From Pseudovibrio sp. Alg231-02 (lineage in GTDB: Bacteria > Pseudomonadota > Alphaproteobacteria > Rhizobiales > Stappiaceae): a stretch of DNA of 64,000 bases. The stretch spans positions 635,068 through 699,067 of the forward strand of contig NZ_FREX01000001.1 of the NCBI RefSeq assembly GCF_900143565.1, written 5' to 3'. The translations under genes and the position numbers were made by a program. Shown one piece after another: positions 4,195 through 20,449 of the stretch (positions within the stretch are counted from its first letter, which is position 1; every line of letters starts with the position of its first letter). Below the pieces are notes generated by a model. It was not told the origin of the DNA. It worked only from the letters and a program-made list of their open reading frames with translations, and did not search any database.

Positions 4195-5664
4195 TCACGC
4201 CAAAGCCACAAGGTCTACTTTTCCATTGATTCCCGCAACACACTCGGACTTTAAATCTATCATGTTTCCCTTATACCCTTGTCGTAGAGCCATGGAATAA
4301 CTTGCACCATCTGTCAGGAACCGTGTGCCCTGCACCTTGTTGGCGGCTTCCAGCTTTGCAGCGCGGTTGACAGCATCACCGATCACGGTGAACTCCAACC
4401 GGTCCCGTACACCAACAACTCCAACACTGACCGGACCTGCTGCGACCCCTACACCAACTTCAAATTTCATGGGCCAACCTGCAGCTTCCAGATCGGCGCA
4501 CTCTTCCTCCAGAATGTGAGTCAGTTCGACACCTGCTCGCAACGCGTCAGCTGCATACGTTTCGCTGTCTGATACAGCGCCGAAGGTTGCAAGAATTCCA
4601 TCACCAAGGAACTTATCAATCTTGCCCCCTTCTCCCAAAATCACCTTTGCAGCTTTCTTTTGGTAGAGACTCAGAACACGCATGGTGGTTTCTGGTGGCA
4701 GTTTGGCGGCAGTTTTTGTAAAGGACCGGATGTCTACAAGAAGGATGGCAACATCCCGGATTTCACCAGTTCCAGCCATGAGCCTGCTTTCAGATTCCAC
4801 AATGGAATTTGCAACTTCTGGCGTGAAAAAGCGGCTCAAGTCTTTTACTGCATTCTTCTGGCGAATGGCTGAGAAGAAAGTGCGGCGGGCTCTGAAGATA
4901 GAAAGGGCAAGAAGCGCTGTCACTGACAGGATGATTATCAACTTGTCTAATTCTGCCCCGATGAGAACTGCCTCGCCGGTCAGATATTCGATGTAGTTTC
5001 GAGTGATAAGTGTTGAGCCACCTTGATAGGTCAGAGCATAGAACACCAACCCTAACCAACCCAGAGCCCCGAAGACGCCAGTGAGGATCACGTATCTTGG
5101 ATCAAAGCGGAGGGCTCTCAGGGCTATGAACAGGAACAGGTACATCAAGGTCGGGGCCTTGAGGTAAAAAGTGGGATGCTGGGCATACTGGATGTGGAAG
5201 GAGAAAATCAATCCGACCAGAAGCGCTACGTCTGCCATGATAGACAGGACCAGATACCAGACCGGCAGGGTCGTTCTGAAAGAGACGTAAATACGTATAA
5301 GCGTAAAGACGAGATAACAGGAAAAGGCGATGGGAACGAAGTTGAAGCCCATAGTGCCTTCGGCTCTTGGCGCCAGGGCGTACAGAACAGCGAAGAAGAT
5401 GATGACTCCGAGCTGGACGATACCGATCAGACGTTCGGAGGCCGCTTCCTGACGCGCTACTTCACTACGCACACGTAAAGGCAAGTCCCCTTCCGGAGCT
5501 TTTGGCCCTAAAACACCGCGCTTCAGCTGCTGGTAGAAGTTAGGTTCAGCTTTCTTCTGGTAAGAGATGCCATGGAACTTTTCGCTCAAGTCCACATCCG
5601 GCTTTTTCTCAGATCCACGTTTTTTTGAAGGATCGGAATTTTCTGGACCACTTCCAACTGCCAC
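4195..5664 (-). CDS. Membrane-bound class III adenylate/guanylate cyclase
   Basis: 489 residues. About 80 N-terminal cytoplasmic residues precede a membrane block of roughly six hydrophobic segments (about 80-258) and then a class III cyclase catalytic domain (about 300-489). Metal-binding aspartates are visible in LLVDIRSFT (D311) and KFLGDG (D355). K351 and T426 in EFTVIGDAVNRAAKLE are the Lys/Thr purine-selecting pair typical of bacterial adenylate cyclases, and N433/R434 or K437 are transition-state residues, so the enzyme looks active, probably making cAMP. GTG start at 5664 with GGGAGA upstream. It is the most downstream gene of the minus-strand group that includes an MBL hydrolase and a cNMP-binding protein, which suggests a local cyclic-nucleotide circuit. 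No obvious sensor domain apart from the membrane block. Confidence 0.88.
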   Translation of the reverse strand: MAVGSGPENSDPSKKRGSEKKPDVDLSEKFHGISYQKKAEPNFYQQLKRGVLGPKAPEGDLPLRVRSEVARQEAASERLIGIVQLGVIIFFAVLYALAPRAEGTMGFNFVPIAFSCYLVFTLIRIYVSFRTTLPVWYLVLSIMADVALLVGLIFSFHIQYAQHPTFYLKAPTLMYLFLFIALRALRFDPRYVILTGVFGALGWLGLVFYALTYQGGSTLITRNYIEYLTGEAVLIGAELDKLIIILSVTALLALSIFRARRTFFSAIRQKNAVKDLSRFFTPEVANSIVESESRLMAGTGEIRDVAILLVDIRSFTKTAAKLPPETTMRVLSLYQKKAAKVILGEGGKIDKFLGDGILATFGAVSDSETYAADALRAGVELTHILEEECADLEAAGWPMKFEVGVGVAAGPVSVGVVGVRDRLEFTVIGDAVNRAAKLEAANKVQGTRFLTDGASYSMALRQGYKGNMIDLKSECVAGINGKVDLVALA

Positions 5665-5750: not shown

Positions 5751-6572
5751 TTAAGGTTTGAAGACCATCCCTTCAGAGGCCACGATTGCTCGTGGATGCA
5801 TCTGCTGGGCAGCCAAACCTATCTCGTCCAATTCATCATCCGTGCGACGCGGATCGTGATGAAAGATCACGGGCGTTTTCACGTTGGCGCGCTGGCATAT
5901 TCCGACCACATGCTCCCATGTGGAATGTCCCCAACCCTTATACTTAGGGTATTCGGCACAGGTGTACATCCCATCCTGGATCACAACATCTGCATCACGG
6001 ATAAACTCTAGGACAGCAGCATCGTGAGATGCGCTCCCCATTTCGTGATCTGTGATGATGCACATGGACTTACCATTGTACTCCATCCGGTAGCCACAGG
6101 CACCGCCTGGATGGTTTAGCGCAACGGTTTTGATTATCAGCCCATTGTCTTTCTTCAGGGTGTCCCCTGCCTTGAAACTTTTAAAGGAAACGGCACTTAG
6201 CGTGTTCGCTCCTACCGGGAAAATAGGGGGTGACATGATCCGACAGATAATGTCCTTCAAATCACATGGGTCATTAAAATGGCCTGCGGTTAGGCGAATA
6301 CTGAAATTGGGATCGTACGCAGGCTCGAAGAAGGGCAAACCACAGATGTGGTCTAGGTGTGTATGCGTGAAGAGAAGATCGATGTCGCGGTGTGGGCCTT
6401 TCATCAACTCTTTACCCAGATTGCGTGCACCAGACCCACAGTCGACCATCAACAGAACGTCTCCCGCCCGAATTTCAAAGCAGGCTGTTTCTCCGCCGTA
6501 TCTAAGTGTTTCGGGACCAGCAGCAGCTGTTGAACCGCGAACACCCCAAATTTTAAGAGAAAACTCGTTCAA
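5751..6572 (-). CDS. Metallo-beta-lactamase-fold hydrolase
   Basis: About 273 residues from a TTG start at 6572. Opens with KIWGVRGSTAAAGPETLRYGG, the usual start of a branch of MBL-fold metal-dependent hydrolases often found with cyclic-nucleotide signalling domains. The HTHLDH metal motif is intact, with later ligand candidates in NHPGG, ITDHEMG and FHHDPRR, so a di-metal active site is plausible. Substrate unknown; related folds include RNase Z, PhnP and class II-type cyclic-nucleotide phosphodiesterases. An ATG at 6653 would overlap the cNMP gene by 68 bases and add an unrelated arginine-rich leader, so I prefer the TTG with AAAGG upstream. Placed between a cyclase and a cNMP-binding protein; degradation of the nucleotide signal is an inference from position. 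Confidence 0.82.
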   Translation of the reverse strand: MNEFSLKIWGVRGSTAAAGPETLRYGGETACFEIRAGDVLLMVDCGSGARNLGKELMKGPHRDIDLLFTHTHLDHICGLPFFEPAYDPNFSIRLTAGHFNDPCDLKDIICRIMSPPIFPVGANTLSAVSFKSFKAGDTLKKDNGLIIKTVALNHPGGACGYRMEYNGKSMCIITDHEMGSASHDAAVLEFIRDADVVIQDGMYTCAEYPKYKGWGHSTWEHVVGICQRANVKTPVIFHHDPRRTDDELDEIGLAAQQMHPRAIVASEGMVFKP

Positions 6573-6585
6573 GTAATCTGGCCTT

Positions 6586-7026
6586 TCAAGTGGACGCAGG
6601 GCGTGCCTGCGCAAGTTCTCTGGTCGTTTTTTCCAATCGCAACGCCAATACACGCATAATCTCGAGCGAAACTTTCGGAAACTCCGCGATGAGCTTCAAA
6701 AAATCGTCTTTGGATATTGCCAGAATGTGAGTTGTACCCACTGACTGTAAGGTCGCTGTTCTTGGCACATCACACAGGATCGCAATCTCACCAATGATGG
6801 CATATTGTCCAACCTTCGCAACCTCATTTTCATCAACAAACACAGCAACTTCACCGGAGAGGACAACAAATGCACTGTCACCATCATCTCCCTGATGGCA
6901 CAAATGCTCCCCATCCTGAAACTCCATGCGGTCACTGATGAACGCAAGAAGACGCAGTTTGCTTGGTTCCAATCCCTGAAAGAGAGGGACACGGCTTAAA
7001 GCTTGAACTTCTGCATCAATAGTCAC
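6586..7026 (-). CDS. Stand-alone cyclic-nucleotide-binding domain protein
   Basis: 146 residues made of one CAP/CNMP-binding beta-barrel followed by a helical tail and no DNA-binding HTH, so it is not a Crp-type transcription factor. The phosphate-binding cassette GEIAILCDVPRTATLQ retains the Glu and Arg that hold the ribose and cyclic phosphate. GTG start at 7026 with GGGAG upstream; the gap to the ABC gene is 100 bases and to the MBL start 13 bases. Probably a cytosolic sensor or adaptor passing cAMP/cGMP status to a partner. The adjoining ABC-like protein or MBL hydrolase are natural candidates, by inference only. Confidence 0.87.
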   Translation of the reverse strand: MTIDAEVQALSRVPLFQGLEPSKLRLLAFISDRMEFQDGEHLCHQGDDGDSAFVVLSGEVAVFVDENEVAKVGQYAIIGEIAILCDVPRTATLQSVGTTHILAISKDDFLKLIAEFPKVSLEIMRVLALRLEKTTRELAQARPAST

Positions 7027-7126: not shown

Positions 7127-9724
7127 CTATCTTTCGATAACCCTCCCATTTTCTAGGTGAAGCGTCGTAGAAAACTCCTCAGCAACACTTTCATTACTTA
7201 CTCCGAACATGAGAATTTTATCACTCATGAGCTTCCTGAGGTCTTCGCGCAGGGTTTTATCTGTTGCACTTACACTGTTTGCTGTCTCATCCAGAACGTA
7301 GATGTGGGCATTCTTCAACAGGGCACGAACCAGACAAATCAACCTGCGTTGATGGGAGGATAACTTCGCGCCAGCAATGCCCACCTGATAATCGAAGGCA
7401 GCGCGGCGAATTGGGGCAATCAAGTCTCTTTCACGCACGAGCTCCTGCAGAACTTGTTGTATTTTCTGGCGGGCATCGCGGCGGTCCAACCTTGCGTGTC
7501 CGAAGACCAGATTGTCCTCGATGCTCAAAGTGGTGAGATAAGTGTCTGGATCAAAGAACTCGAAACGCTCATTGTCTTTGCCCACTGTTTCCATAAACTG
7601 TTTCCGAGCAGCGAGGATCTTCTCCCGCATATCATCATCCAGAACGCCAAGGCGGTGCTTTGCTGGAATGAGCTTGAGCGCCAGCGCAATCAAACGGGCC
7701 CGATCTACATCTTTGAGCCGTTTGCGCCGCTGTTCACCCTTTTGGTCATTCACAATACGGGCAAACTCCGGAAGATCCTCACGACTGATGAAAGAGTACC
7801 TGTTCAGCAAATCACTGTCTGCGCTGACATCAGCAAACAGTTCGACCATGGTCTTTGCGATTTTCAGCCCGATATCCGCCAGGAGCACATCAAACCCGGT
7901 CTCTTTGAGGAAAGCTGAAATCTGCGGGTCTGTCGGAACATGTTCAATGGTCATAAAGTGTTCTTTGGGGCTGGCGAAAAACAGGTTCTGCGCCAGATTA
8001 GCAGACATGTTGAATTTTTCAGGGTCCCAGAACTCGACAAGATTTTGAAGTTTTGTGTCATTCTGGATTTTCTCGCGCAAGGCTTTCCGCGCCTCAACCA
8101 ATTTGGGCATGAGGCCGCCATTGAGCTCTTCAGTCTCGTTTGGATTGATGACTGTCTCAACGCCCAGTAAGTACAAATCACGCGAGAAACCCGCCACTTT
8201 ACACAGCTCAAGGGCTTTGTCTTCCAGTTGCTGCATGGACCCAGCATCGGCCAACTCGTAATCTTCCCAGCGCGCTTTCAAATCAAAGTACGGATTGAGT
8301 GTCATGGCAGCTTCCTTCAACTGGCGCTGCCGCTTTCTCAGATCACTGCCTTCATACTCGACCTTTTCCTGAGGCCTGTGGCGCAGCCCGTAGAAGAGGT
8401 TATCGCGAATTGTCCCTGTCCAGACATGCAAATGACCACCCACGTAGGCAATCTGCCGACCCAAGGTCGCTTCTGGCATGCTTTCGAAATTGGTGTTGTT
8501 GATGGTGACTGATCCTGACGTGGGACTCAGCAATCCAGCTGCCATCTGCAACAACTCAGCGCGTCCAGAACCATCCACACCAGAAACAGCCAGTGGTTTA
8601 CCCGGCTCGACATTAAGTGAAACATTATGCACTTCCTGCCCGGTCCCTACTCCTGATAGCCCTAGTTTATCTAGGGTAAGTGAACCTGTTAGCACCAGAG
8701 ATTCATCATCCAGCAGGCGTTGTTTGTCGTAGAGATCAGGTGGATCGAAGTTTTCGACCACTGTCTGGTATTTGACTGAGACGTCTGCGGTCATTTGGTA
8801 GTAGGCCAGCAGCTCTTTCCATGGACCAGCCAGATCCTTGTAGGCTGCAATCACCGCAATCAACGCACCGATGCTGAGTTGCCCTTTGATGACCAGATAG
8901 CCGCCGATAAAGTAGAAGAAAAACGGCGTCAGCTGGTTCATGAAATTATTAACGAACTTGATGAAGTACTTGCGATTATAGATATCGAAACGAATACGGA
9001 AGTTTCGATAGAGTCTGTCTGAAAGGTCTGCTGAATGCCACGCTGACGTGTCGTTGCTATGAATCTCGGAGATACCTGAGATACTCTCTCCCACCTTATC
9101 GGCGATCACGCGCACATTCTTCACACGCTGACGAGACAGGCGAACGACCTTCTGTTGGAGCTTGGGAATGATATATCCCTGCACCGGATAAAGTGAGATG
9201 GCGGCCAGTCCGAGCAGTGGGTCCTGCATGAAAATAAAGCCGACCTGAACGACCAGCATTCCGCCTTGATAGGCTGGTAAAGCGAAGGCCTCGCCAACAA
9301 AACCACCAACATCCTCGACCTCGGCGGTAATCATTGGTATGATCTCGCCGGAGCTGACCTTCTTAAAGTGAGGCAGGCGGAAGCGGAGTACGCGCTGAAA
9401 CAGCTCAAACCGCAACTGGCGTAGCATCCTCTCACCCAGTCTACCCTTGTAGACGTTGAGGTAGAGCTTGATGCAGTTGCTAACAACAACAAGAACCAAA
9501 AACAAAATACATAGCACCGCCAGATACTGAATCTGACCGAGCTGCATTCCGAAAAGTTCTACTGGAAAATTGCTACCCTGAATTGCTTCATTGGTAATTG
9601 TCTTAGGTAGATCCAGCAGGATGTAACTCACCGGATAGGACAATATGGTGACTAGAAGAATCGCCACTTGATAGCGGGCTGAGTTCTTCCAGATGAATTG
9701 GAAAAGCGATTTTTCCATGTCCAC
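7127..9724 (-). CDS. ABC-exporter-like membrane protein with degenerate NBD and repeat-bearing insertion
   Basis: 865 residues. Residues 1-310 form an ABC type-1 exporter membrane domain (hydrophobic segments near 20-40, 65-85, 152-182, 260-300). The nucleotide-binding domain is heavily altered. Walker A is GVDGSGRAEL (382-391), with Arg for the catalytic Lys. The Q-loop Gln is missing (YVGG, 427-430). The signature is LSSHQ (788-792) instead of LSGGQ. Walker B keeps Asp and Glu (VLDETA, 810-815). The switch His is absent (GVSNES, 841-846). Between Q-loop and signature lies about 340 residues of extra sequence in which a segment recurs: EFWDPEKFN...NLFF (564-573) and EFFDPDTYL...NLVF (722-741), each preceded by a similar helical stretch. 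ATPase activity is doubtful. It heads the minus-strand group with cNMP, MBL and cyclase genes and is divergent from the glycan cluster. Confidence 0.82.
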   Translation of the reverse strand: MDMEKSLFQFIWKNSARYQVAILLVTILSYPVSYILLDLPKTITNEAIQGSNFPVELFGMQLGQIQYLAVLCILFLVLVVVSNCIKLYLNVYKGRLGERMLRQLRFELFQRVLRFRLPHFKKVSSGEIIPMITAEVEDVGGFVGEAFALPAYQGGMLVVQVGFIFMQDPLLGLAAISLYPVQGYIIPKLQQKVVRLSRQRVKNVRVIADKVGESISGISEIHSNDTSAWHSADLSDRLYRNFRIRFDIYNRKYFIKFVNNFMNQLTPFFFYFIGGYLVIKGQLSIGALIAVIAAYKDLAGPWKELLAYYQMTADVSVKYQTVVENFDPPDLYDKQRLLDDESLVLTGSLTLDKLGLSGVGTGQEVHNVSLNVEPGKPLAVSGVDGSGRAELLQMAAGLLSPTSGSVTINNTNFESMPEATLGRQIAYVGGHLHVWTGTIRDNLFYGLRHRPQEKVEYEGSDLRKRQRQLKEAAMTLNPYFDLKARWEDYELADAGSMQQLEDKALELCKVAGFSRDLYLLGVETVINPNETEELNGGLMPKLVEARKALREKIQNDTKLQNLVEFWDPEKFNMSANLAQNLFFASPKEHFMTIEHVPTDPQISAFLKETGFDVLLADIGLKIAKTMVELFADVSADSDLLNRYSFISREDLPEFARIVNDQKGEQRRKRLKDVDRARLIALALKLIPAKHRLGVLDDDMREKILAARKQFMETVGKDNERFEFFDPDTYLTTLSIEDNLVFGHARLDRRDARQKIQQVLQELVRERDLIAPIRRAAFDYQVGIAGAKLSSHQRRLICLVRALLKNAHIYVLDETANSVSATDKTLREDLRKLMSDKILMFGVSNESVAEEFSTTLHLENGRVIER

Positions 9725-9971
9725 TCCGATTAAGCTCAGATCAGGCTAACCCAAACTGAGGCGATGCGATTTACGCTCTAACTGACGCAAGGGAACTTTA
9801 CGCTTCAAGATCTTAAAAAACGGCATAAACCCGCAAGATCCCTTGGATTTATGGGGGTACTTCTTTGGTGTTTAAACGCTTCAAAGCAGGTTTGACCGTT
9901 GCTTGGTGGCCTTCCCCCGCCAAACTGATCTGATGCTGAGGTTTATGCGCAGCAGATGGAATAAGAAGCGC
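9725..9971. promoter_or_regulatory. Divergent intergenic region between ABC-like gene and glycan cluster
   Basis: 247 bases between oppositely oriented starts, so it must carry promoters in both directions. ACGCTTCAA occurs twice (about 9800 and 9869), spaced about 70 bases apart, and could be a shared protein site. No convincing -35/-10 pair was identified. No gene is supported here. Confidence 0.4.
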
Positions 9972-11213
9972 ATGACGGTAATGACGCCAAAAATTCTGAT
10001 TTATAGCCACGACACCTTTGGATTGGGCCATCTGCGGCGGTGCCGCACAATCGCACAATCTTTGGTTGGCTCCTTCCAGGAAATGTCCGTTCTCATCCTT
10101 TCAGGATCTCCCATCATTGGTAGTTTCGAGTTTCGTTCCCGGGTCGATTTCGTCCGCATTCCGGGCGTGATCAAACTGCGTAGTGGTGAGTACACTTCGC
10201 TCTCTTTGCAGCTTGATATCAATGAGACGATCGCTATTCGATCATCCATCATCGAACACACGGCCAAGGTGTTTAAACCTGATATCTTCATCGTCGATAA
10301 GGAGCCGCTTGGGCTGCGTGGTGAGGTTCTCCCCTCGCTTCAATACCTCAAGGGGCAAAAAACACGGCTGGTTTTGGGTCTTCGCGATGTGATGGATGAT
10401 CCGCATGTTCTGAAGGAGGAGTGGCTTCGCAAACGCGCCTACCCTGCTCTCAATGATCTTTATGATGAGATCTGGGTTTACGGCCCTTCAGTAATGAACA
10501 ATCCATTGGATGGGCTTGGCTTTGACCAGTCGGTGATGGAAAAGACGCTCTTTACCGGCTACCTGCGCCGGTCAATGCCAAGTTCAGCTCAGGATTTCAC
10601 AGCGCCCTTTGATGGTGCCCCTTATGTGTTGGTGACCCCGGGCGGGGGTGGTGATGGTGTTGAGCTCGTCGATTGGGTCATACGGGCCTATGAAGCACGT
10701 TTGCGTCCTTTGTTCCCAGCTCTCATTGTTCTTGGACCCTTCATGAGCAAGGCAGATGTGGAAGCATTCTCAACGCGTGCATCTCATTTGCGCGATGTTG
10801 AGATCCTTCGATTTACCCCAGAAATTGAGCCCTATATGGCCAATGCGACTGCTGTGATTGGCATGGGAGGGTACAACACATTCTGCGAGATCCTCTCCTT
10901 TGACAATCCAGCCCTTCTGGTTCCACGTGTTGTGCCACGCAGAGAGCAGGCTATTCGAGCAGAGCAAGCCCAGCGGCTGGGTCTTGCGCAGATGCTTCCG
11001 ATTGACTCATACCCGAGTGTTGAGCTGATGGTGAAAGCATTGGCAAACCTACCATTTATCGCACCACCGTCTCATGCTCATTCCGAAAACTATCTAGGTG
11101 GTTTGGATATTATCAATCTGCGAACTGCCGAAATTCTTGGCATGCGTGAACAGCATTTATCACAACGTCTTGATCCTCGAGACGATGTCAAACTGACATA
11201 TAATGCGGGGTAG
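9972..11213 (+). CDS. MurG-like (GT-B) glycosyltransferase
   Basis: About 413 residues from ATG 9972. N-terminal SHDTFGLGHLRRCRTIAQSL resembles the glycine-rich acceptor loop of MurG/GT28 enzymes. The C-terminal half has LVTPGGGGDG, then GMGGYNTFCEIL and LVPRVVPRREQAIRAEQ, the nucleotide-sugar-binding layout of GT-B enzymes that act at the GGYNT/GAGT loop. No membrane segment: likely cytosolic or peripheral. The extended TTG start at 9903 has no support. First gene of a plus-strand run; its TAG overlaps the next start region. It is related in design to the fourth gene of the cluster. Donor and acceptor unknown. Confidence 0.8.
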   Translation: MTVMTPKILIYSHDTFGLGHLRRCRTIAQSLVGSFQEMSVLILSGSPIIGSFEFRSRVDFVRIPGVIKLRSGEYTSLSLQLDINETIAIRSSIIEHTAKVFKPDIFIVDKEPLGLRGEVLPSLQYLKGQKTRLVLGLRDVMDDPHVLKEEWLRKRAYPALNDLYDEIWVYGPSVMNNPLDGLGFDQSVMEKTLFTGYLRRSMPSSAQDFTAPFDGAPYVLVTPGGGGDGVELVDWVIRAYEARLRPLFPALIVLGPFMSKADVEAFSTRASHLRDVEILRFTPEIEPYMANATAVIGMGGYNTFCEILSFDNPALLVPRVVPRREQAIRAEQAQRLGLAQMLPIDSYPSVELMVKALANLPFIAPPSHAHSENYLGGLDIINLRTAEILGMREQHLSQRLDPRDDVKLTYNAG

Positions 11214-11215
11214 TG

Positions 11216-12454
11216 ATGGAAGTTGGTCGCATTGCTGTGGTTGTTAAAGGGTATCCTCGTCTTTCCGAGACCTTTATTGCCCAGGAAATCTACGGTCTGC
11301 AGGAACGCGGTGTAGGCCAGCTTATTGTCGCGCTGCGCCGCCCCTATGATCCTTATGTGCATGACGTCCACGAGAAGATCACTTCCGAAGTGCTTTACCT
11401 CACTGAGTATCTCAAGGATGATCCGCCTCGTGTCCAAAAAGCTATGGCATGGGCAAAGAAACAACCGGCATATGCAGCAGCCAGGGCATGTTTTAAAAAA
11501 GACCTAGAGCACAAGAAAAATGCAGAGCGCTTCCGCCGATGGGGGCAAGCTTGTGTGATGGCTCATGAACTGCCAGAGGATGTTATCTGGATACACACGC
11601 ATTACCTTCACAGCCCTTGTAGTGTTGCACGTTACGCAGCTCTTCTCTCGGGGCGTCGCTGGTCATTCTCAGCTCATGCCAAAGACATATGGACCACGGA
11701 ACGATGGGAACTTGAGACAAAACTTGCTGACGCTGCCTGGGGAGTAACCTGTACTAAAGCGAACCTTGCTTACCTGCGTTCCCTTTGTAAGGAACCTCAC
11801 AAAATCAGTCTTGTTTATCATGGTCTCGATTTTTGCGGATTTCCTGAGGCTCCCCGTCCTGCCACGTTACGGGATGGAACAGGAGCAGACGGCGTTCGGA
11901 TTATCTCCGTCGGGCGACTGGTAGACAAGAAGGGTTATGACAACTTGCTGCGCGCTTTCAGCAAACTCCAAAAGGATTTGAACTGGCACTTCACTCACAT
12001 CGGTGGAGGTGAGCTGTCATGTTCACTCAAGAACCTTGGTGTGCAACTTGGTCTGGATGACCGTATATCGTGGCTGGGAGCCCAACCGAGGAAACTTGTG
12101 TTGGAAGAGATGGAAAACGCCGATATTTTCGCTCTTGCCTGCCGTGTCTCAAAGTCGGGCGATCGGGATGGCCTGCCGAACGTGGTGATGGAAGCACAAG
12201 CTATGGCGTTGCCGTGTGTTTCAACAGAGGTGTCTGCTCTTCCTGAGATCATTGAAAGTAATGAGACTGGCCTGCTTTGTCCTGCTGAAGACATCTCAGC
12301 CTTATCAGAGGCACTGCAGCTTCTGATCACACACCCTTCTGAGCGAGAGCGCATTGGAACCAATGCGTTTGAAAGCGTTCATCGCCGGTTCAGTGCCTCG
12401 CCCGGTTTGGATTTTCTAGAGGAGAAGTTCTCGAGAAGTTTGGAGCCCTGCTGA
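11216..12454 (+). CDS. Glycosyltransferase family 4
   Basis: About 412 residues. KGYPRLSETFIAQEI at the N-terminus is the acceptor-side motif of GT4 enzymes of exopolysaccharide pathways. The C-terminal GRLVDKKGYDNLLRAF and the E-x7-E region in DGLPNVVMEAQAMALPCVST bind the nucleotide sugar. ATG 11216 is preferred over the overlapping GTG 11213, and it follows the previous stop by two bases. The stop TGA shares bases with the next ATG (TGATG), so translation is coupled. A retaining transferase building a glycan or glycolipid; exact linkage unknown. Confidence 0.85.
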   Translation: MEVGRIAVVVKGYPRLSETFIAQEIYGLQERGVGQLIVALRRPYDPYVHDVHEKITSEVLYLTEYLKDDPPRVQKAMAWAKKQPAYAAARACFKKDLEHKKNAERFRRWGQACVMAHELPEDVIWIHTHYLHSPCSVARYAALLSGRRWSFSAHAKDIWTTERWELETKLADAAWGVTCTKANLAYLRSLCKEPHKISLVYHGLDFCGFPEAPRPATLRDGTGADGVRIISVGRLVDKKGYDNLLRAFSKLQKDLNWHFTHIGGGELSCSLKNLGVQLGLDDRISWLGAQPRKLVLEEMENADIFALACRVSKSGDRDGLPNVVMEAQAMALPCVSTEVSALPEIIESNETGLLCPAEDISALSEALQLLITHPSERERIGTNAFESVHRRFSASPGLDFLEEKFSRSLEPC

Positions 12455-13584
12455 TGAAAGTCGCCTTTACAGCGCCCATGAAGCCTATTGACCACCCTGT
12501 GCCTTCGGGAGACCGAACCATGGGGCGATTGATCGTGCGAGCATTACATTTGGCGGGGCATGAGGTTGAAATTGCCTCCACTTTTCGCAGCTGGCGCGCT
12601 GAGGGTGGTGAGGACGTGACACGCGACGTGAAAGAGCTGGCGCTTACAGAGGCAAAAGCTATCGCAGAGCGCTGGATTGAACACAGTGAAGTGCCTGATG
12701 TGTTTCTCACGTATCACCTCTACCACAAAGCACCTGACTGGATCGGCCCGTACCTGTGCGCGAAATTCAACATTCCTTATGTGGTCGTGGAAGCCAGTCG
12801 TGCCCCAAAACGACAGGCAGGCAACTGGGCTCTCGGGTTTAATGCAGCTGATGCAGCTCTTGCTCAGGCCAGTCAGGTGGTCGCTCTGACTAAATCTGAT
12901 GCACAATGCCTGAAAGAGGTCCTGAATGAAGATGTTCTGACGGTTCTGCCACCATTTTTGGAAACTGCAAAGTTTGAGGTCAGTCACAGTGTCACCAAAG
13001 GCTCGGCTGATGGAAAGATACGGCTGCTGTGTGCGGGTATGATGCGTGAAGGCGACAAGCAATTTTCATACATGGTGCTTGCTGCTGCCCTGAAACAGAT
13101 TGCCGATTTGCCATGGCGCCTGACCATTGCCGGAGATGGACCGGCCCGAGGTGAGATAGAACCGCTGTTTGATCCGGCACGCACAGAATTTGTCGGGCTC
13201 ATCCCTTGGCAAGAGATGCCGCGTCTTTACCGGTCTCACGACATTTTTGTCTGGCCTGCCATTCGTGAAGCCTTTGGCTTTGTGTTTCTGGAGGCTCAAT
13301 CCTGTGGCTTGCCCGTGGTTGGTGGGCGGGTGTTTGGTGTACCTGACATCGTGGAGGAAGGTACCAGTGGTTTGCTTTCAGATGAAGGCGACGCCTCTGC
13401 TTTGGCTCAAAACCTGATGTCTCTCATAAAAAACACACACAAACGGGAGAATATGGGGCTCGCAGCTATAGAAAACATTCACAAAAACCATAGTCTTGAA
13501 GCTGGGGCGAGAGGGCTGGATAAGGTGCTCAACGCAGCTCTTGAACATCACAAGTTTAAACGGAGAGTTCACGGAGGCCGATGA
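12454..13584 (+). CDS. Glycosyltransferase, GT4-type
   Basis: 376 residues. N-terminal MKVAFTAPMKPIDHPVPSGD leads into a GT-B fold. The donor-binding half shows GDGPARGEIEPLF, then FVWPAIREAFGFVFLEAQSCGLPVV, with the usual E-x7-E spacing. ATG at 12454 overlaps the preceding stop by one base and its own stop overlaps the next gene's start, so it sits inside a tightly coupled operon. No signal peptide or membrane helix. Predicted to add a sugar to the product of the same pathway. The family assignment is firm; the substrate is not known. Confidence 0.83.
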   Translation: MKVAFTAPMKPIDHPVPSGDRTMGRLIVRALHLAGHEVEIASTFRSWRAEGGEDVTRDVKELALTEAKAIAERWIEHSEVPDVFLTYHLYHKAPDWIGPYLCAKFNIPYVVVEASRAPKRQAGNWALGFNAADAALAQASQVVALTKSDAQCLKEVLNEDVLTVLPPFLETAKFEVSHSVTKGSADGKIRLLCAGMMREGDKQFSYMVLAAALKQIADLPWRLTIAGDGPARGEIEPLFDPARTEFVGLIPWQEMPRLYRSHDIFVWPAIREAFGFVFLEAQSCGLPVVGGRVFGVPDIVEEGTSGLLSDEGDASALAQNLMSLIKNTHKRENMGLAAIENIHKNHSLEAGARGLDKVLNAALEHHKFKRRVHGGR

Positions 13585-14783
13585 TGAAAGCCTTCATCCA
13601 TGTTCAGCACTTACTTGGCTCGGGCCATATCGTTCGGGCAGTGGCGCTTGCCAAGGCGCTGGTTCGTCAAGGCATTGCAGTGACTCTTGCAACTGGGAAC
13701 CGTATTCCTGACACGCTGAATTGTGACGGCCTTTCGGTTGTCCGGCTGCCTGCTGTGCGTGCTGCCAATGCAAAATTTAATGTTCTGCTGGATGAGCATA
13801 ACGTCCCGATTGATGAGGCGTGGTGGGAGAAACGCATCACGGCAACGCTTTCTGCCTTTTCCTCTGAGCATTTTGACTTGCTGATCACAGAAACCTACCC
13901 CTTTGGGCGCAGGATGTTTGCAGCCGAGATGACGCGTCTTCTTGAATGTGCTGGCAGCAAACTCTCCCCGCCCTGGGTCGTTTGCTCTGTACGTGACATT
14001 CTGGTGCGCAAGGACGAGTTATGGAAGGAAGAATGGATGGCCTCACAAGCCTCCGCCTTTTATGATCGGATCCTTGTCCATTCAGACCCGCAACTCATTA
14101 CGTTTGATGAGAGTTTTCCGTTCTCAAACAGGGTGAGTTCGCATATCCGCTACACGGGCTATATCAGTGATGACCGTACAACATCCGCACCTTCAATTGA
14201 CGGTGCAGGTGAGATTATTGTTTCGTGTGGAGGTGGAGCTGTCGGCTCTGCTTTGTTGCGGGCTGCGCTTTCTGCTCCCAACCATATGTCACCCAACATC
14301 AGCCATCGGTGGCGCGTGCTTGTTGGACAGGACGTTCCCGACGCTGAGTTCCAACAGTTTTCCAGGCACTCTTCATCAGAGCTCATTATTGAGCGGGCTC
14401 GCAAAGACTTCCCTGCGCTTTTGAAGAATGCCAAACTTTCTATTTCTCAAGCTGGTTACAACACGGTTGTCGATATCCTGCGTGCAGGTATTCCATCCGT
14501 TCTGGTTCCTTTCGCACAAGAAGCTGAGACAGAGCAAACTCAACGCGCGCTCAGCCTCATGAAGCATCACAGAGCTGTGGCTGTTCCCGAAAAAGTGCTC
14601 AGCCCTAATACGCTTGCACAAGCTGCACAAAAAGCACTTTCCCTTCCAGCGCCAGATTTACACGTGGCGCTCAATGGAGCGGAGATTTCAGCTCAAGTGC
14701 TTGCCGCAGATCTTGGCATGGAAACACCCATGGACCATGCGCTCGGGATTATCTGGGAAAGGAACGTTTCTCGTGATCTCTAG
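13584..14783 (+). CDS. MurG-like (GT-B) glycosyltransferase, second copy type
   Basis: About 399 residues. HLLGSGHIVRAVALAKALV parallels the GLGHLRR motif of the first gene in the run. Later VSCGGGAVGSALL and ISQAGYNTVVDILRAGIPSVLVPF mirror its GGYNT donor loop. Two ATGs (13581 and 13584) are possible; GGAGG at 13573-13577 is six bases from the second, which I therefore prefer. Overlaps the preceding stop. Cytosolic GT-B enzyme; substrate unknown. Having two MurG-like and two GT4 enzymes in one run implies at least a tetrasaccharide-scale assembly if all act on one product. Confidence 0.8.
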   Translation: MKAFIHVQHLLGSGHIVRAVALAKALVRQGIAVTLATGNRIPDTLNCDGLSVVRLPAVRAANAKFNVLLDEHNVPIDEAWWEKRITATLSAFSSEHFDLLITETYPFGRRMFAAEMTRLLECAGSKLSPPWVVCSVRDILVRKDELWKEEWMASQASAFYDRILVHSDPQLITFDESFPFSNRVSSHIRYTGYISDDRTTSAPSIDGAGEIIVSCGGGAVGSALLRAALSAPNHMSPNISHRWRVLVGQDVPDAEFQQFSRHSSSELIIERARKDFPALLKNAKLSISQAGYNTVVDILRAGIPSVLVPFAQEAETEQTQRALSLMKHHRAVAVPEKVLSPNTLAQAAQKALSLPAPDLHVALNGAEISAQVLAADLGMETPMDHALGIIWERNVSRDL

Positions 14784-15624
14784 TATCGCTCCTGTCGTTG
14801 AGCCTGTTCCGGAAACCGAACAACCCGCAGGTGACAGCCAACGGGCGTTTGAACATCATCTCACCCAGCACCTCAATTGGTTTGAAGAGCGCGGCCTTAC
14901 TGTCAAGTTCTGGTGGCGGGACGATGATGCTGTTTCGCCAACTCCTGCGCTTGAAGAATTGCTTGTGTTTTCTGACCGGTTCCGCATTCCGCTTTCGCTT
15001 GCCGTAATTCCAAAATTTGCAACAGATGCGCTCGCCCAGCGTCTTGCGAACACGCAGGATGTTCATGCCGTTCATCATGGTTGGCAGCATAAGAATTATC
15101 AGAAGAAAATATACGGCGAGAAAGCCAGTGAGTTTGGGTGGCGGCGAACGTCTAAGGAGATGGCGAAAGAACTGGCAGAAGGCCGAGAGATCCTGCAAAA
15201 CTTGTTCGGTGAACGTTTTGTGCCGTTGTTTGTGCCTCCCTGGAACCGGATTGCGCCGCGTGCTGTGCATCTCCTTAAGCAGCAAGGCGATTACGGATTA
15301 TCCGCATTTACCTGGATCAATCATTTCCGCCTGCCACGCCTCCAAAGCCACGTCGACATCATCAAATGGAAGAAAAACAAACGCTTTATCGGTTGGGAGG
15401 CAGCTCGCAAACGGTTAGATCTGCAGCTTTGCCGACGTCGAACCAATGTCGCTGAGCCGATCGGACTGCTGACACATCATCTTGATCACGGTGAAGGCTG
15501 CTCAGAATTTCTGGAGGTATTTTTCGAGCTCACGTCTGCTCATCCTGCAGTTAAATGGCTTAGTTCTCGAGACCTTCTGGATCAAGCAAAACACGATTTT
15601 ACTTTGGCTGCCGGACAGGTCTGA
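14773..15624 (+). CDS. NodB-type polysaccharide deacetylase-like protein
   Basis: About 283 residues from GTG 14773, which overlaps the preceding gene by 11 bases and has AAAGGAA upstream. A reading frame starting at 14614 would lie mostly inside the glycosyltransferase gene and is not supported. KFWWRDDDAVSPTPAL carries the paired acidic residues of the metal-dependent deacetylase motif; HHGWQHKN and FVPPWNRIAP are later parts of the NodB fold (the PPW/PPF loop). No signal peptide, so it may act on a cytosolic intermediate, as in lipid-linked sugar deacetylation. Last plus-strand gene of the cluster; its end overlaps the convergent methyltransferase by 26 bases. Confidence 0.78.
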   Translation: MISSIAPVVEPVPETEQPAGDSQRAFEHHLTQHLNWFEERGLTVKFWWRDDDAVSPTPALEELLVFSDRFRIPLSLAVIPKFATDALAQRLANTQDVHAVHHGWQHKNYQKKIYGEKASEFGWRRTSKEMAKELAEGREILQNLFGERFVPLFVPPWNRIAPRAVHLLKQQGDYGLSAFTWINHFRLPRLQSHVDIIKWKKNKRFIGWEAARKRLDLQLCRRRTNVAEPIGLLTHHLDHGEGCSEFLEVFFELTSAHPAVKWLSSRDLLDQAKHDFTLAAGQV

Positions 15625-16208: not shown

Positions 16209-17381
16209 CTACTTATACGGATCAGCTGCATCGCGCAGCCCGTCGCCCATGAAGTTGAAGGCAAGCACGACAATGATGATCGGAATAACCGGCGCCATCA
16301 ACCACGGATAAATGGTAACGACGGAGATATTCTGGGCTTCATTGAGAAGAACACCCCAGGATACAGCGGGCCTCCTCAGTCCGAGATTCAAGAAGGACAG
16401 AGCCGTTTCACCAAGTATCATCGCCGGTACAGAAAGTGTTGCTGATGCAACAAGGTGACTTGTGAAACCGGGAAGCAAGTGTTTGACGATAATACGACTT
16501 GGGCTAGCGCCCATCAGAGCTGCGGCCTTGGCATATTCTTCTTCTCGCAGTGATAGCAATTTTGATCTGACGGCGCGCGCCAAACCCGGCCAGTCCAACA
16601 GGCCCAGAATGACCGTCAAGCCGAAGTAAATCCAGACTGGCGACCATGTTATCGGCAAGGCGGCAGATAAAGCCATCCAGAGTGGGAGTTCGGGCAATGA
16701 GCGCATAATTTCGATAACGCGTTGAATTGAGCTATCGATCCACCCACCGAAGAAACCAGCAAGTCCGCCGAGCAAGACACCAAGCACCATGGATATGCTT
16801 ACCCCGACAAGACCAATGGTGAGAGACAGCCGTGCTCCATAAACGAGACCTGAATATTGATCTCGCCCCAATCTGTCCGTTCCTGCAATAAACAGCGTCC
16901 CGTCTTTAGCGGGGCAAATAACGTGAAGGCTTGCGGGAAACAGGCCCCAGAACTTGTAGGGGTCTCCTTTGCAAAAGAACCGGAGCTTTTGAACTTTTGT
17001 GGTGTCTGTTTCATAGACCCACTTCAAATTTTCCAGATCAACTGAAGGGTTCAGACCATACACAAAGGGTCCAATCAACTTGCCTTCATGGAACAGGTGA
17101 ATGGCTTGTGGCGGAGCAAAGAGGAAATCTACGTTTCGCTTTGCCACTGAATAAGGTGCAATAATTTCTGCAAAAGGGACGCATAGGTAGAAGAAGAAGA
17201 GAATGATCGCTGAGATAACGGCCAGCTTGTGCTTGCGGAACTTCCACCAGATGATTTTCCATTGTGGCGCCTGATAGTATCTCTCCTGCTCTCGGGTCAG
17301 GATCTCAACATCCTTGGGGTCAAAACCCTTAGGGTTGACGTAGTGCTCTGCTTTGTCCTCTCCACGTTTGCCCGGGTTCAT
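16209..17381 (-). CDS. ABC importer permease, OppC/DppC type
   Basis: 390 residues with an N-terminal cytoplasmic tail, a first membrane segment near 53-75, a large periplasmic loop (about 76-165) and a five-helix core. The core carries GTDRLGRDQYSGLVYGARLSL and the EAA loop EEEYAKAAALMGASPSRIIVKHLLP that docks the ATPase. The long loop resembles permeases of rhizobial Agp-type oligosaccharide/peptide importers more than plain DppC. ATG at 17381 overlaps the TGA of the upstream permease (ATGA), so the two are coupled. Partner of the gene at 17378-18406; the substrate could be oligopeptide or oligosaccharide. Confidence 0.88.
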   Translation of the reverse strand: MNPGKRGEDKAEHYVNPKGFDPKDVEILTREQERYYQAPQWKIIWWKFRKHKLAVISAIILFFFYLCVPFAEIIAPYSVAKRNVDFLFAPPQAIHLFHEGKLIGPFVYGLNPSVDLENLKWVYETDTTKVQKLRFFCKGDPYKFWGLFPASLHVICPAKDGTLFIAGTDRLGRDQYSGLVYGARLSLTIGLVGVSISMVLGVLLGGLAGFFGGWIDSSIQRVIEIMRSLPELPLWMALSAALPITWSPVWIYFGLTVILGLLDWPGLARAVRSKLLSLREEEYAKAAALMGASPSRIIVKHLLPGFTSHLVASATLSVPAMILGETALSFLNLGLRRPAVSWGVLLNEAQNISVVTIYPWLMAPVIPIIIVVLAFNFMGDGLRDAADPYK

Positions 17382-18406
17382 TGTCTTGCCCCTTCTTTTC
17401 CAAGGCGAATTCGTGGATCCAGATAACCAAGCAAGACATCAGAGACCAACATGCCAATCAATGTGAGGATAGAGACGAAGAGGAGGATAAACCCTGCAAG
17501 GAACTGATCCTGCGATTGAAGCGCTCCAAGAAGGACAGGACCGACGGTGGGAAGGTTGAGGACGACAGAAACAATAACCGAGCCTGACACAAGCGAGGGA
17601 ATTAGATTGCCTATATCTGCTATGAATGGGTTGAGAGCGACACGAAGGGGATATTTGACGAGGAGTTTACTTTCTCGCATTCCCTTTGAACGAGCGGTCG
17701 TGACGTATTGCTTATAGATCTCATCCAGCAGGTTCGCGCGTAATCGGCGGATCATGGCGGCTGTGCCGGATGTTCCGATGACAATCACCGGAACAATAAG
17801 ATGTGCCACAATAGACAGGGCTTTACCGCCGCTCAAGGGTTCGCCAATGTAGTGCTCCTCCATAATGCCCCCTACCGTCAGTCCAAACCAGCTGTTGGCC
17901 AGATACATTAAAACCAATGCCAATAAGAAGTTAGGGGTCGCTAGACCGAGATACCCAATAAGTGTGAAGGTGTAATCTCCTAACGAATACTGATGTGTCG
18001 CGGAGTAAATGCCGATGGGAAAGGCAACGCAGTAAATGAAAAGGATCGTAGCAAGGTTGAGCGCAACTGTAAGCGGTAATGTTGGGCCAACCACTTCACC
18101 GACTGGCTGGTCATACTCAAAGGACCAGCCCCAATTGCCCTGAATTAGTCCATCAAACCCATTGGGTCCGGGCCAGAGCCCCACCCAAATTCCGTAACGC
18201 TCCACAAACGGCCTATCAAGAGCGAACTCTTTGCGCAGAAACTCCAGTCTGCCAATGGAAGCACTTTCTCCGGTTGAGCGGAGCATGGAGATCTGGTTGG
18301 AGATGTAGTCCCCTTCCGGCAATTCAATGATGAAGAAAACCAGGAAACTGATGGCAGCAAGCGTTGGTATCATCACCAACAGCCGCCGCAGGATGTAATT
18401 GAGCAC
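17378..18406 (-). CDS. ABC importer permease, OppB/DppB type
   Basis: 342 residues opening MLNYILRRLLVMIPTLAAIS, the standard OppB/DppB N-terminal helix. The EAA motif occurs near YVTTARSKGMRESKLLVKYPLR, and the final segments LASGSV-type and DVLLGYLDPRIRLG are as in the family. GTG start at 18406 with GGGAAG close upstream. The gap to the substrate-binding protein stop (18407-18532) holds no gene. Forms the membrane channel together with the downstream OppC-type permease. Confidence 0.88.
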   Translation of the reverse strand: MLNYILRRLLVMIPTLAAISFLVFFIIELPEGDYISNQISMLRSTGESASIGRLEFLRKEFALDRPFVERYGIWVGLWPGPNGFDGLIQGNWGWSFEYDQPVGEVVGPTLPLTVALNLATILFIYCVAFPIGIYSATHQYSLGDYTFTLIGYLGLATPNFLLALVLMYLANSWFGLTVGGIMEEHYIGEPLSGGKALSIVAHLIVPVIVIGTSGTAAMIRRLRANLLDEIYKQYVTTARSKGMRESKLLVKYPLRVALNPFIADIGNLIPSLVSGSVIVSVVLNLPTVGPVLLGALQSQDQFLAGFILLFVSILTLIGMLVSDVLLGYLDPRIRLGKEGARQ

Positions 18407-18532
18407 CCGCTTCCCTTTCTTTTCTCACACCACTCGTGGGAGAAGTCTAAAGGAGCTCTCTTGGCTTTCTCTGAGAAAATCTAATCAGGTTTGAGAAGCC
18501 CTATTAGCCCGCGCTTAAGGCAAGTGAAAAAA

Positions 18533-20449
18533 TCAATGAGGGAGATCGTCTTCATCCGGTAAGAGGTCTTCAAAAAAGAAGAGATCCATGCGGTGGATGC
18601 CGAACTGAGCACCGGGATCCCATCCATAAATGCCCATTTCAGGTACATTCAAAAGCCCCTTAACAACCACTGGCTGCCGGACAGCATTGACCAGACCGAT
18701 ATGAATTGTTTCATCTGCGTGAATCTGCAGGATTTGCTCCCAAATCATGTCCCGCTCTTCAAAACTACTGCTCACCAGCCATTGATCAAAGAGCTCAATC
18801 AAGCGAATTGCCGGAGGCCAGTCAGGTTTAACACCTGCGTGTCCATCACTCTCATAGTAGTTGCCCCATGGAGCCCATGAGAGAAAATCTTCGCGCGTGG
18901 GAGCATAATCTATCGGCGGCATATCTGCTGTTGGTACACCGTTTTCAAAACCGGACCAGACAGACATCATCAAAGTGCCAGAGAGCGCGCGAGCCCGGAT
19001 CGTGTCGCGCTGGCTTGGGCGGATAAAAGCAGAAACACCAATTTCCTTCCACGTTTCTGCAACAAGCTCCAGCGCATCATCCTGTTCAGCACTCTCGCCT
19101 GTGGTCTCAATAATGAGTTGCAGCGGGCGTCCGTCTTCCAGCAAGCGTACGCCGTCTCCTCGCCTATCTGTCAGTCCAATATCATCCAGCAACTGATTAG
19201 CAAGGTCTGGATTAAATTCCGCCCAAGCCGTTTGAAAGTCTGGCTGATACAACGGAGAAATGTTGAGAACCGTATCGTTGCCGGCTCTCCCCAAACCAAA
19301 ATAAAGTACTTTGTTTATGAGCTCACGATCGATGCCCAACGAGAGCGCATGGCGAAATCTGCGGTCCTGCATGAGTTTGCGCCATGTTGGATCTTTGACG
19401 CTGAGGTTGGGCAGGATTGAAATTTCAGATCCCTTGGAGTTGAGCCAGAGACGGGTGTCATAATCCTGTGTCTGTTCACCACGTTTAAGAACGGAAATAT
19501 CAGAGAACCCAAGTCCACGTGCCTGCAAATCACTTTCACCAGCCAGCGCCTTTGCCGGAATAAGTTTACCATCCACCACATCCATAATTATGCGGTCGAT
19601 ATAGGGAAGTTGCTGGCCTGCACTGTCCACGCGATGGAAGAACGGATTACGCTCCATAACTGCCCTGCGATCCCCCGAAGTGTTTCGTGGCACCCATGGC
19701 TGCAATGTGGGGATATGCGGATTGGATGCGCCGTACATGTCGTCCATGCGGTTGAACAAAGGTGCCCACCCGCGCACTTTCTCAATACGAGCGATCTGCC
19801 TGATAAATTCCGGATTTCCATACTCTTCATGGAACTGCTTCATGTAAGCAGCTGGCCGGTAAATGAACGGCGGGCGTGCTTTTGCAAGTTCCTGCAGGAA
19901 CAGAGGATTTGGCTCATGCCACTCAAAACGAACCGTCGTCTCATCAATAACTGAGAACTCAGGACCTTCACCATCCACCAGCATGAACCCTGGCAGGCCG
20001 ATGGGGTTCAGCTCCTCGTTTAGGGCGACATCTTCAAACCAGAACCGAAAGTCTTCTGCATTAAAGGAACTGCCATCAGACCATTTATGGCCTTCACGCA
20101 GATTTAGAGTGAAGATCTTGTCATAGTGATTATCTACACTCTCCAAAATGTCTGGATTTAACTCGAGGTTTTCATTGTACCCAACCAGCCTTGCATAGCC
20201 CCACACATTGATCAGACGCACGTCTTTAGGCCGCGAAATGAGCGTATGCAGCGCACCACCCTGCACTCCGATTACGCGGCCAATATCATCAGGGTAGGTC
20301 ACAAGTGGTTCATTGGGAACACGATCTACGATAGATGGCAGGCCCGGCGGAATTCCCGGAGTTTCCTTCAGGACCAGAGCTGCCGAGACCGTGGGCACTG
20401 CGAGGCTGATGAGCATAACAACCGTTGTGAGGAGGCCAAGTTTTCTCAT
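18533..20449 (-). CDS. Extracellular solute-binding protein, family 5
   Basis: About 638 residues from ATG 20449: MRKLGLLTTVVMLISLAV then a small-residue stretch ending VSA is a Sec signal peptide, so the protein is periplasmic. GHKWSDGSSFNAEDFRFWFED is the SBP_bac_5 signature region. It is longer than E. coli OppA (about 540), as in the large rhizobial oligosaccharide/peptide binders. The ATG shares bases with the TGA of the upstream ATPase (ATGA) and has GGGGGGAG upstream, which decides this start over a longer one at 20512. Delivers the ligand to the two permeases encoded downstream. Confidence 0.9.
   Translation of the reverse strand: MRKLGLLTTVVMLISLAVPTVSAALVLKETPGIPPGLPSIVDRVPNEPLVTYPDDIGRVIGVQGGALHTLISRPKDVRLINVWGYARLVGYNENLELNPDILESVDNHYDKIFTLNLREGHKWSDGSSFNAEDFRFWFEDVALNEELNPIGLPGFMLVDGEGPEFSVIDETTVRFEWHEPNPLFLQELAKARPPFIYRPAAYMKQFHEEYGNPEFIRQIARIEKVRGWAPLFNRMDDMYGASNPHIPTLQPWVPRNTSGDRRAVMERNPFFHRVDSAGQQLPYIDRIIMDVVDGKLIPAKALAGESDLQARGLGFSDISVLKRGEQTQDYDTRLWLNSKGSEISILPNLSVKDPTWRKLMQDRRFRHALSLGIDRELINKVLYFGLGRAGNDTVLNISPLYQPDFQTAWAEFNPDLANQLLDDIGLTDRRGDGVRLLEDGRPLQLIIETTGESAEQDDALELVAETWKEIGVSAFIRPSQRDTIRARALSGTLMMSVWSGFENGVPTADMPPIDYAPTREDFLSWAPWGNYYESDGHAGVKPDWPPAIRLIELFDQWLVSSSFEERDMIWEQILQIHADETIHIGLVNAVRQPVVVKGLLNVPEMGIYGWDPGAQFGIHRMDLFFFEDLLPDEDDLPH

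Follow-up and report, generated by a model that had tools for sequence, protein, structure and literature searches.

The window analysed here, a stretch of 64,000 nucleotides from the genome of Pseudovibrio sp. Alg231-02 (contig NZ_FREX01000001.1, positions 635,068 to 699,067), carries on its reverse strand an open reading frame (ORF; 7127-9724) that begins with GTG, is uninterrupted over 865 codons and encodes an 865-amino acid protein resembling exporters of the ATP-binding cassette (ABC) type. The gene is accompanied by a small cyclic-nucleotide-binding partner gene and, in the opposite orientation, by four glycosyltransferase genes (GT1 to GT4) and a deacetylase-like gene. The host genome (5.96 Mb) is Pseudovibrio-like, and the nearest named orthologue loci are from Pseudovibrio, with strain Ad37 reaching 98% identity. 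The protein is typical of the large family to which it belongs, a family characterized by altered ATPase motifs and by a nucleotide-binding domain (NBD) that contains two additional tandem copies of its helical subdomain; no study of this family, and no paper on this protein, was found in the open-access literature.

Altered ATPase motifs

The ABC_membrane transmembrane domain (TMD) is recognized by Pfam at residues 63-293 (PF00664; E 4.7e-18, above the cut-off), and the ABC_tran domain (PF00005) is split into two stretches, the better of which covers residues 365-477. The best NCBIfam match is MsbA (2.5e-42, far below the cut-off of the model), and the best PDB sequence matches are ABCB4 and ABCB1, with MsbA lower in the ranking. 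A full-length AlphaFold model was too weak to be used (pLDDT 62.7, pTM 0.46); a fairly confident model of the NBD alone (pLDDT 84.3, pTM 0.77) served solely for secondary structure and for a Foldseek search, which retrieved ABC proteins, e.g., the ComA NBD (3vx4, TMt 0.75).

Four ordinary exporters encoded by the host genome served as controls for the motifs and carry Lys, Ser, Gln, Asp, Glu and His in the identical alignment columns. In the window protein, Walker A reads GVDGSGR (residues 382-388; GVDGSGRA at 382-389) instead of GxxGxGK(S/T), with Arg in place of Lys; the Q-loop position 430 is Gly, the signature is LSSHQ (788-792) instead of LSGGQ, and the switch-His position 843 is Ser. Walker B Asp-Glu is retained at 812-813. 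An earlier note on this DNA had listed these four alterations and the intact Walker B, and each is borne out by the residues and the control alignment. The same note had named a frameshift as an explanation that would undermine its reading; none was found in the ORF. The possibility of a frameshift or pseudogene was ruled out, as the frame is intact in 13 of the 14 named orthologue loci and is under purifying selection. The broken locus lies in the Pseudovibrio denitrificans JCM 12308 draft (L011:6001-8594), in which the ABC gene is divided into ORFs of 427 and 391 amino acids.

Homologues are widespread in Alphaproteobacteria. The insert in the NBD, used as a query, matched 131 of 385 alphaproteobacterial genomes (E 1e-5), and a profile of 14 members matched 32 of 398 genomes sampled phylum-wide (E 1e-30, own genome counted), 31 of them alphaproteobacterial; the exception, G490, was matched through the TMD only. 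Among plasmids, the insert is matched by 253 records, whose ten most frequent organism names all belong to Alphaproteobacteria, and family members are present on rhizobial plasmids. The nearest relatives share the same insert and altered motifs; nearest relatives with an intact, insert-free NBD, which the earlier note had listed among the findings that would refute it, were not what emerged. An alignment of 124 members was assembled from 105 of the 131 insert-matching genomes (the own genome among them), the named loci, five plasmid loci and loci from the phylum-wide search; it omits the near-copies L001, L002, L003, L005, L006 and L009, the frame-broken L011, and partial, diverged or TMD-only rows (L062, L075-L079, L089, L090 and the second ORFs of L065 and L122).

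Throughout this alignment, to which the family counts below refer, the ATPase residues are eroded. Walker A has Lys in 64 and Arg in 47 of the 124 members, and the following residue is Ser/Thr in only 12 and Glu/Asp in 90. The Q-loop Gln is present in 22 members; the signature contains GG in none, and thus LSGGQ in none, its Gln being kept in 106. Walker B Asp is found in 25 members (Asn in 59, Ser in 24) and Walker B Glu in 63, the D-loop Asp in 105, and the switch His, in what is the least certain column of the alignment, in 36 when a shift of one column is allowed. When five core ATPase features are scored per member, 31 members have none, 48 one, 33 two, 11 three, one four, and no member has all five. 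These counts make the window protein a typical member and rule out lineage-specific decay, since the same kinds of change recur across the family. The family is nevertheless under purifying selection: between the window protein and L003, the ratio of nonsynonymous to synonymous substitution rates (dN/dS) is 0.012 for the TMD, 0.053 for the N-terminal part of the NBD, 0.030-0.065 for parts of the insert and 0.147 for the C-terminal part of the NBD, values for more distant pairs being partly saturated.

Two further groups of relatives were encountered. Two genomes carry several fused paralogues of the family, three in G154 (L065, L093 and L094) and two in G331 (L066 and L092). In addition, L062, L089 and L090 are insert-bearing, split-NBD relatives (profile match within 494-834) whose N-terminal half barely matches the family TMD or does not match it at all.

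Three tandem helical-subdomain units

Walker A and the signature are separated by 406 residues in the window protein and by 104 in all four controls, and the distance from Q-loop to signature is 358 versus 56; hence, the NBD contains 302 extra residues, fewer than the approx. 340 given in the earlier note. Profile-profile self-comparison over the 124 members, in which each E-value refers to one single comparison, reveals the origin of this insert. Copy B (531-600) matches copy C (683-752) with E 9.9e-19 over 53 columns (23% identity), and the native segment A matches B with 3.3e-6 and C with 6.9e-7. Of 91 segment pairs scanned, one was a trivial overlap, and the seven best of the remainder are all pairs among units at approx. 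397-532, 529-664 and 661-796, which indicates that the helical subdomain occurs three times. The helical parts downstream of each motif also match one another, e.g., 463-532 and 595-664 at 7.9e-6, and the next-ranked pair lies in the TMD at 0.0038. Thus, the insert consists of two additional tandem copies of the helical subdomain, three units altogether, and chance internal similarity is ruled out.

N580 and N738 lie 158 residues apart, the spacing given in the earlier note for its two short repeated motifs, and the internal similarity is significant. The duplication extends beyond these motifs; the note correctly recognized a repeat of helical-subdomain material within a single NBD, but underestimated its size. 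The equivalent Asn residues of the three units are almost or entirely invariant (N442 0.99, N580 1.00 and N738 1.00 of the members), as are R546 and R707 (1.00 each); together with G742 and W486, the residues R546, N580, R707 and N738 of the repeats are found in 99-100% of members. A search of the insert against PDB by sequence detected no relative (best E 0.13), which eliminates a known PDB relative at this level. In known exporters, the helical subdomain faces the coupling helices of the TMD.

Conserved TMD residues and relatives without an NBD

Eleven TMD residues (Q19, K86, N90, E98, R105, Q182, P187, R205, R245, K252 and P267) are present in at least 98% of members. All eleven are kept in six of six TMD-only proteins, whereas none is shared by more than one of the four controls; E135 is likewise kept, but is Glu in two controls. 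That residues specific to the family are shared with proteins lacking an NBD is the best evidence that the function resides in the TMD. Such TMD-only relatives are 314-413 amino acids long; among the matches listed, at least 19 lie in open frames of 328-425 amino acids, one of which (G139) reaches the end of its contig. In a quick tree with long branches and an unsure internal order, the family and the TMD-only proteins are separated from the ordinary exporters with 99% SH-aLRT support.

In one genome, G324, a 345-amino acid TMD-only protein occupies the position of the ABC gene beside genes whose products are related to GT1-GT4 and to the deacetylase-like protein (34-46% identity). It is followed by zapA and by an ORF that looks like a transketolase. 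A search of the G324 genome with the insert gave no match and no insert-bearing NBD.

Three NBD-less ABC-type TMD proteins (L075, L076 and L078; approx. 400 amino acids) have an additional N-terminal hydrophobic stretch. L076 and L078 are encoded near multicopper oxidase, CopB or PCuAC genes and L075, from G490, near a cytochrome c' gene; these proteins are possibly a copper-linked transporter family.

The cyclic-nucleotide-binding partner

The partner of 146 amino acids consists of a lone cyclic-nucleotide-binding domain (PF00027, E 1.2e-18). No CRP-type DNA-binding domain was found in it, Pfam searched to E 0.1 giving only cNMP_binding and a weak cupin match. Among 129 loci (the six near-copies included), the partner is encoded by the next gene in 106 and forms a C-terminal extension of the ABC protein in 15 (121 together), and the fusion was confirmed by Pfam in all three fusions examined. 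Its phosphate-binding cassette is intact: the Gly, Glu and Arg residues that we take to be significant for this cassette are present in 116, 107 and 116 of 116 partners, respectively. Therefore, a single unit combines a decayed ATP site with a preserved cyclic-nucleotide site. In the window, the partner gene is followed downstream, on the same strand, by genes for a metallo-hydrolase and a cyclase. The hydrolase (5751-6653) is matched best by RNase Z models (1e-18) and weakly by a model for cyclic-nucleotide-degrading phosphodiesterases (2e-7), both below their cut-offs; judged from these matches, it could complete a cyclic-nucleotide module.

The glycosyltransferase cluster

Of the 129 stretches, 88 contain GT1 together with GT2, which points to a conserved glycosyltransferase set. 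Over the 385 genomes, insert and GT1 occur together in 124, the insert alone in seven, GT1 alone in three and neither in 251. The three genomes with GT1 alone comprise G324, which has the TMD-only form, G070, with a distant GT1 (33% identity), and G025, which is 86% complete. In several genomes (e.g., G301, G131 and G168), GT1 lies far from the ABC gene, so that linkage alone is not enough to explain the co-occurrence. Counts of importer ATPases in the stretches were disregarded because any ABC ATPase may match.

Similar gene clusters are found elsewhere. On Rhizobium etli p42e and in Sinorhizobium meliloti (L074), the ABC and partner genes are accompanied by genes related to GT1, GT2 and GT4 as well as by a cyclase and an oligopeptide-type importer; in Azospirillum, the fused form is found with such an importer and GT1-GT4, with no cyclase annotated in that stretch. 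According to the accessible text of PMC10128002, nine genes between smb21252 and smb21271 of S. meliloti are required for an uncharacterised surface polysaccharide, PPP; smb21252 and smb21265 are glycosyltransferase genes among them, and mutants in these two are more sensitive to phazolicin. In the accessible part of a second study, seven of the nine PPP genes are described as rising under Myxococcus predation (PMC10315480). The S. meliloti cluster containing the ABC gene appears to be the cluster for this putative polysaccharide. Gene order and product names suggest that smb21265 corresponds to GT1, with the ABC and partner genes located between smb21265 and smb21271.

Table 1. Features of the window around the ABC-exporter-like gene
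Feature	Coordinates	Strand	Evidence
ABC-exporter-like protein, 865 aa, degenerate NBD, triplicated helical subdomain	7127..9724	-	open ORF, PF00664, split PF00005, orthologues
TMD, residues 1-325, ABC_membrane, type IV exporter fold, family-specific conserved residues	8750..9724	-	Pfam, conservation
Altered Walker A, residues 382-389, GVDGSGRA	8558..8581	-	family alignment
Q-loop position 430, Gly for Gln	8435..8437	-	family alignment
Helical-subdomain unit A, residues ~397-532, native copy with N442	8129..8536	-	profile self-comparison
Extra unit B, residues ~529-664, R546, N580	7733..8140	-	profile self-comparison, conservation
Unit C, residues ~661-796, R707, N738, running into signature	7337..7744	-	profile self-comparison, conservation
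Altered signature LSSHQ, residues 788-792	7349..7363	-	family alignment
Walker B Asp-Glu, residues 812-813	7286..7291	-	family alignment
Switch-His position 843, Ser	7196..7198	-	family alignment
Stand-alone cyclic-nucleotide-binding partner, 146 aa	6586..7026	-	PF00027; adjoining or fused in 121/129; intact cassette
Partner phosphate-binding cassette, residues 77-92, IIGEIAILCDVPRTAT	6751..6798	-	partner alignment
Metallo-beta-lactamase-fold hydrolase, start uncertain	5751..6653	-	PF12706
Adenylate/guanylate cyclase	4195..5664	-	PF00211
GT1 glycosyltransferase, GT28-like C-terminal domain, divergent from ABC gene, start uncertain	9903..11213	+	co-occurrence
GT2 glycosyltransferase	11213..12454	+	
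GT3 glycosyltransferase	12454..13584	+	
GT4 glycosyltransferase, GT28-like	13581..14783	+	
Polysaccharide deacetylase-like protein, start uncertain, overlaps GT4	14614..15624	+	PF01522 slightly below curated cut-off
Oligopeptide-type ABC importer: two permeases, SBP_bac_5 protein, double ATPase; similar importer flanks the cluster in R. etli and Azospirillum	16209..22347	-	
Second adenylate/guanylate cyclase	22488..24365	-	PF00211

Possible function of the family

We tentatively favour, with somewhat less than even confidence, the view that the window protein derives from a type IV ABC exporter and acts, independently of ATP and under the control of a cyclic nucleotide, as a translocator or scaffold for a glycan. 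Of its parts, the altered motor and the link to a glycan are well supported; that ATP is not used, that a glycan is translocated and that a cyclic nucleotide exerts control are what we infer. In such a system, the motor of the ancestral exporter would be dead or nearly dead, the TMD would have been retained and re-specialised, and the NBD fold would persist as a scaffold, enlarged by the two tandem helical-subdomain copies and coupled to the small cyclic-nucleotide-binding protein. The TMD would translocate the glycan made by GT1-GT4 or form a membrane platform for it; a cyclic nucleotide, for which the cyclases of the locus are a possible source, would bind the partner and switch the complex via the enlarged NBD. 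ATP hydrolysis would be unnecessary, and any drive would be supplied by polymer synthesis or by an ion gradient. The suggestion in the earlier note that the protein may serve as a receptor or gated channel instead of pumping is consistent with the family-wide loss of ATPase residues, the intact partner and the NBD-less relatives.

A bolder version, which we consider doubtful, holds that the whole exporter family has switched its controlling nucleotide: the ATP site would be dead and the cyclic-nucleotide-binding subunit, separate or fused, in charge of a cyclic-nucleotide-gated glycan translocator, with the NBD and its three helical subdomains a mere transmission piece and the TMD sufficient alone in some genomes.

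Several observations weigh against an ATP-independent, cyclic-nucleotide-controlled glycan function, most heavily the kept P-loop glycines, the restriction of the NBD-less cluster to one genome and the split ABC frame of S. meliloti 1021. Eight of the 129 loci have no adjoining or fused partner, although in four of these it is encoded at another place in the stretch, and a cyclase is present in only 18 of 123 stretches (the six near-copies excluded), so that the cyclase part is not constant. The P-loop glycines are largely kept (position 382 in 110 and position 387 in 109 of 124 members), as is Lys/Arg at 388 (111 of 124), and with Walker B Asp-Glu retained in the window protein, some nucleotide binding may remain. 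The TMDs of the controls are very distant, which makes the alignment of the TMD residues rough. G324 is the sole NBD-less cluster, in one assembly that is 91% complete, and the only match among four genomes of its order. As for the glycan, seven insert-bearing genomes have no GT1, and the co-occurrence counts ignore kinship; the accessible part of PMC10128002 does not name the nine PPP genes singly. Moreover, in the pSymB record of S. meliloti 1021 (L176:685-3436), the strain of the PPP study, the ABC gene lies in two overlapping frames of 237 and 762 amino acids. The match spans 2713 bases in this record versus 2712 in strain 2011, the latter being the query length; the split frame is either a sequence error or a sign that strain 1021 can do without the ABC gene.

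Among the alternatives, a membrane scaffold or receptor for the glycosyltransferases that performs no transport, in which the TMD dimer anchors the enzymes and regulates them upon cyclic-nucleotide binding, is rather unlikely. It would agree with the altered motor, the intact cassette of the partner and the frequent glycosyltransferase neighbours, and SUR proteins are known to regulate a channel without pumping. However, the TMD is the most constrained part of the protein, and its many conserved polar residues are common to the NBD-less forms; such constraint suits a substrate or ion path and would be less needed by a scaffold.

It is unlikely that the protein continues to work as an exporter or flippase driven by ATP through an unorthodox site, perhaps by pairing with an ordinary half-transporter, encoded at another locus, to form a heterodimer. 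Heterodimeric exporters do bear one degenerate site, and the mostly kept P-loop glycines and Lys/Arg, the Walker B Glu (63 of 124) and the purifying selection on the NBD speak for such an arrangement. Against it stands the state of the positions known to coordinate Mg2+, namely Walker A Ser/Thr (12 of 124) and Walker B Asp (25 of 124): with both mostly lost and the signature GG wholly lost, neither composite site would be sound. In G324, moreover, the same cluster comes without the NBD. Finally, it is quite improbable that the NBD moiety binds something else, for example a glycan, a nucleotide sugar or a cyclic nucleotide, via the extra helical units, to which their near-invariant residues would lend themselves, given that the insert is without a solved relative by sequence and that the repeat Asn residues may merely cap helices.

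If these proteins work without ATP, the public annotation of the genes, often "ABC transporter ATP-binding protein", is misleading for a gene with matches in 131 of the 385 Alphaproteobacteria sampled. The family would be an example of an NBD maintained by selection without catalysis and would join SbmA/BacA as ABC TMDs functioning without ATP. Transport or organisation of a protective surface sugar may be its task, and it may provide a direct link from cyclic-nucleotide signalling to an envelope glycan to which protection against an antimicrobial peptide is ascribed in S. meliloti.

Comparison with known systems

The window protein shares the order of TMD and NBD and the fold with type IV ABC exporters such as MsbA, Sav1866 and ABCB1/ABCB4. 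In contrast to these, no family member (0 of 124) has the full ATPase motif set, and the family possesses two extra helical units, a cyclic-nucleotide partner and TMD residues of its own. CFTR and SUR are ABCC proteins that have turned into a channel and a receptor, respectively, and the family is proposed to resemble them in using the ABC architecture for gating or regulation rather than pumping. CFTR and SUR keep ATP binding; to our knowledge, neither contains a comparable insert or is controlled by such a cyclic-nucleotide-binding partner protein.

The PPP cluster of S. meliloti (smb21252-smb21271) offers a likeness of gene context, as L074 has the ABC and partner genes beside glycosyltransferases, an importer and an adenylate/guanylate cyclase. 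An ABC gene of this kind is not named in the accessible part of PMC10128002, and gene order and product names would place it within smb21252-smb21271.

SbmA/BacA (SLiPT) peptide transporters are a further point of comparison. Membership in this group was rejected, as neither the window protein nor five of its TMD-only kin had a Pfam match to it at the E-value limits used, and, unlike SbmA/BacA, most of the family members seen retain an NBD and lie in the context of a glycan cluster. SbmA is described in the accessible portions of PMC13316013 and PMC10128002 as proton-driven, though related to ABC TMDs. The two groups thus have in common an ABC-exporter-like TMD, for which work without ATP has been shown in SbmA and is proposed here for the family.

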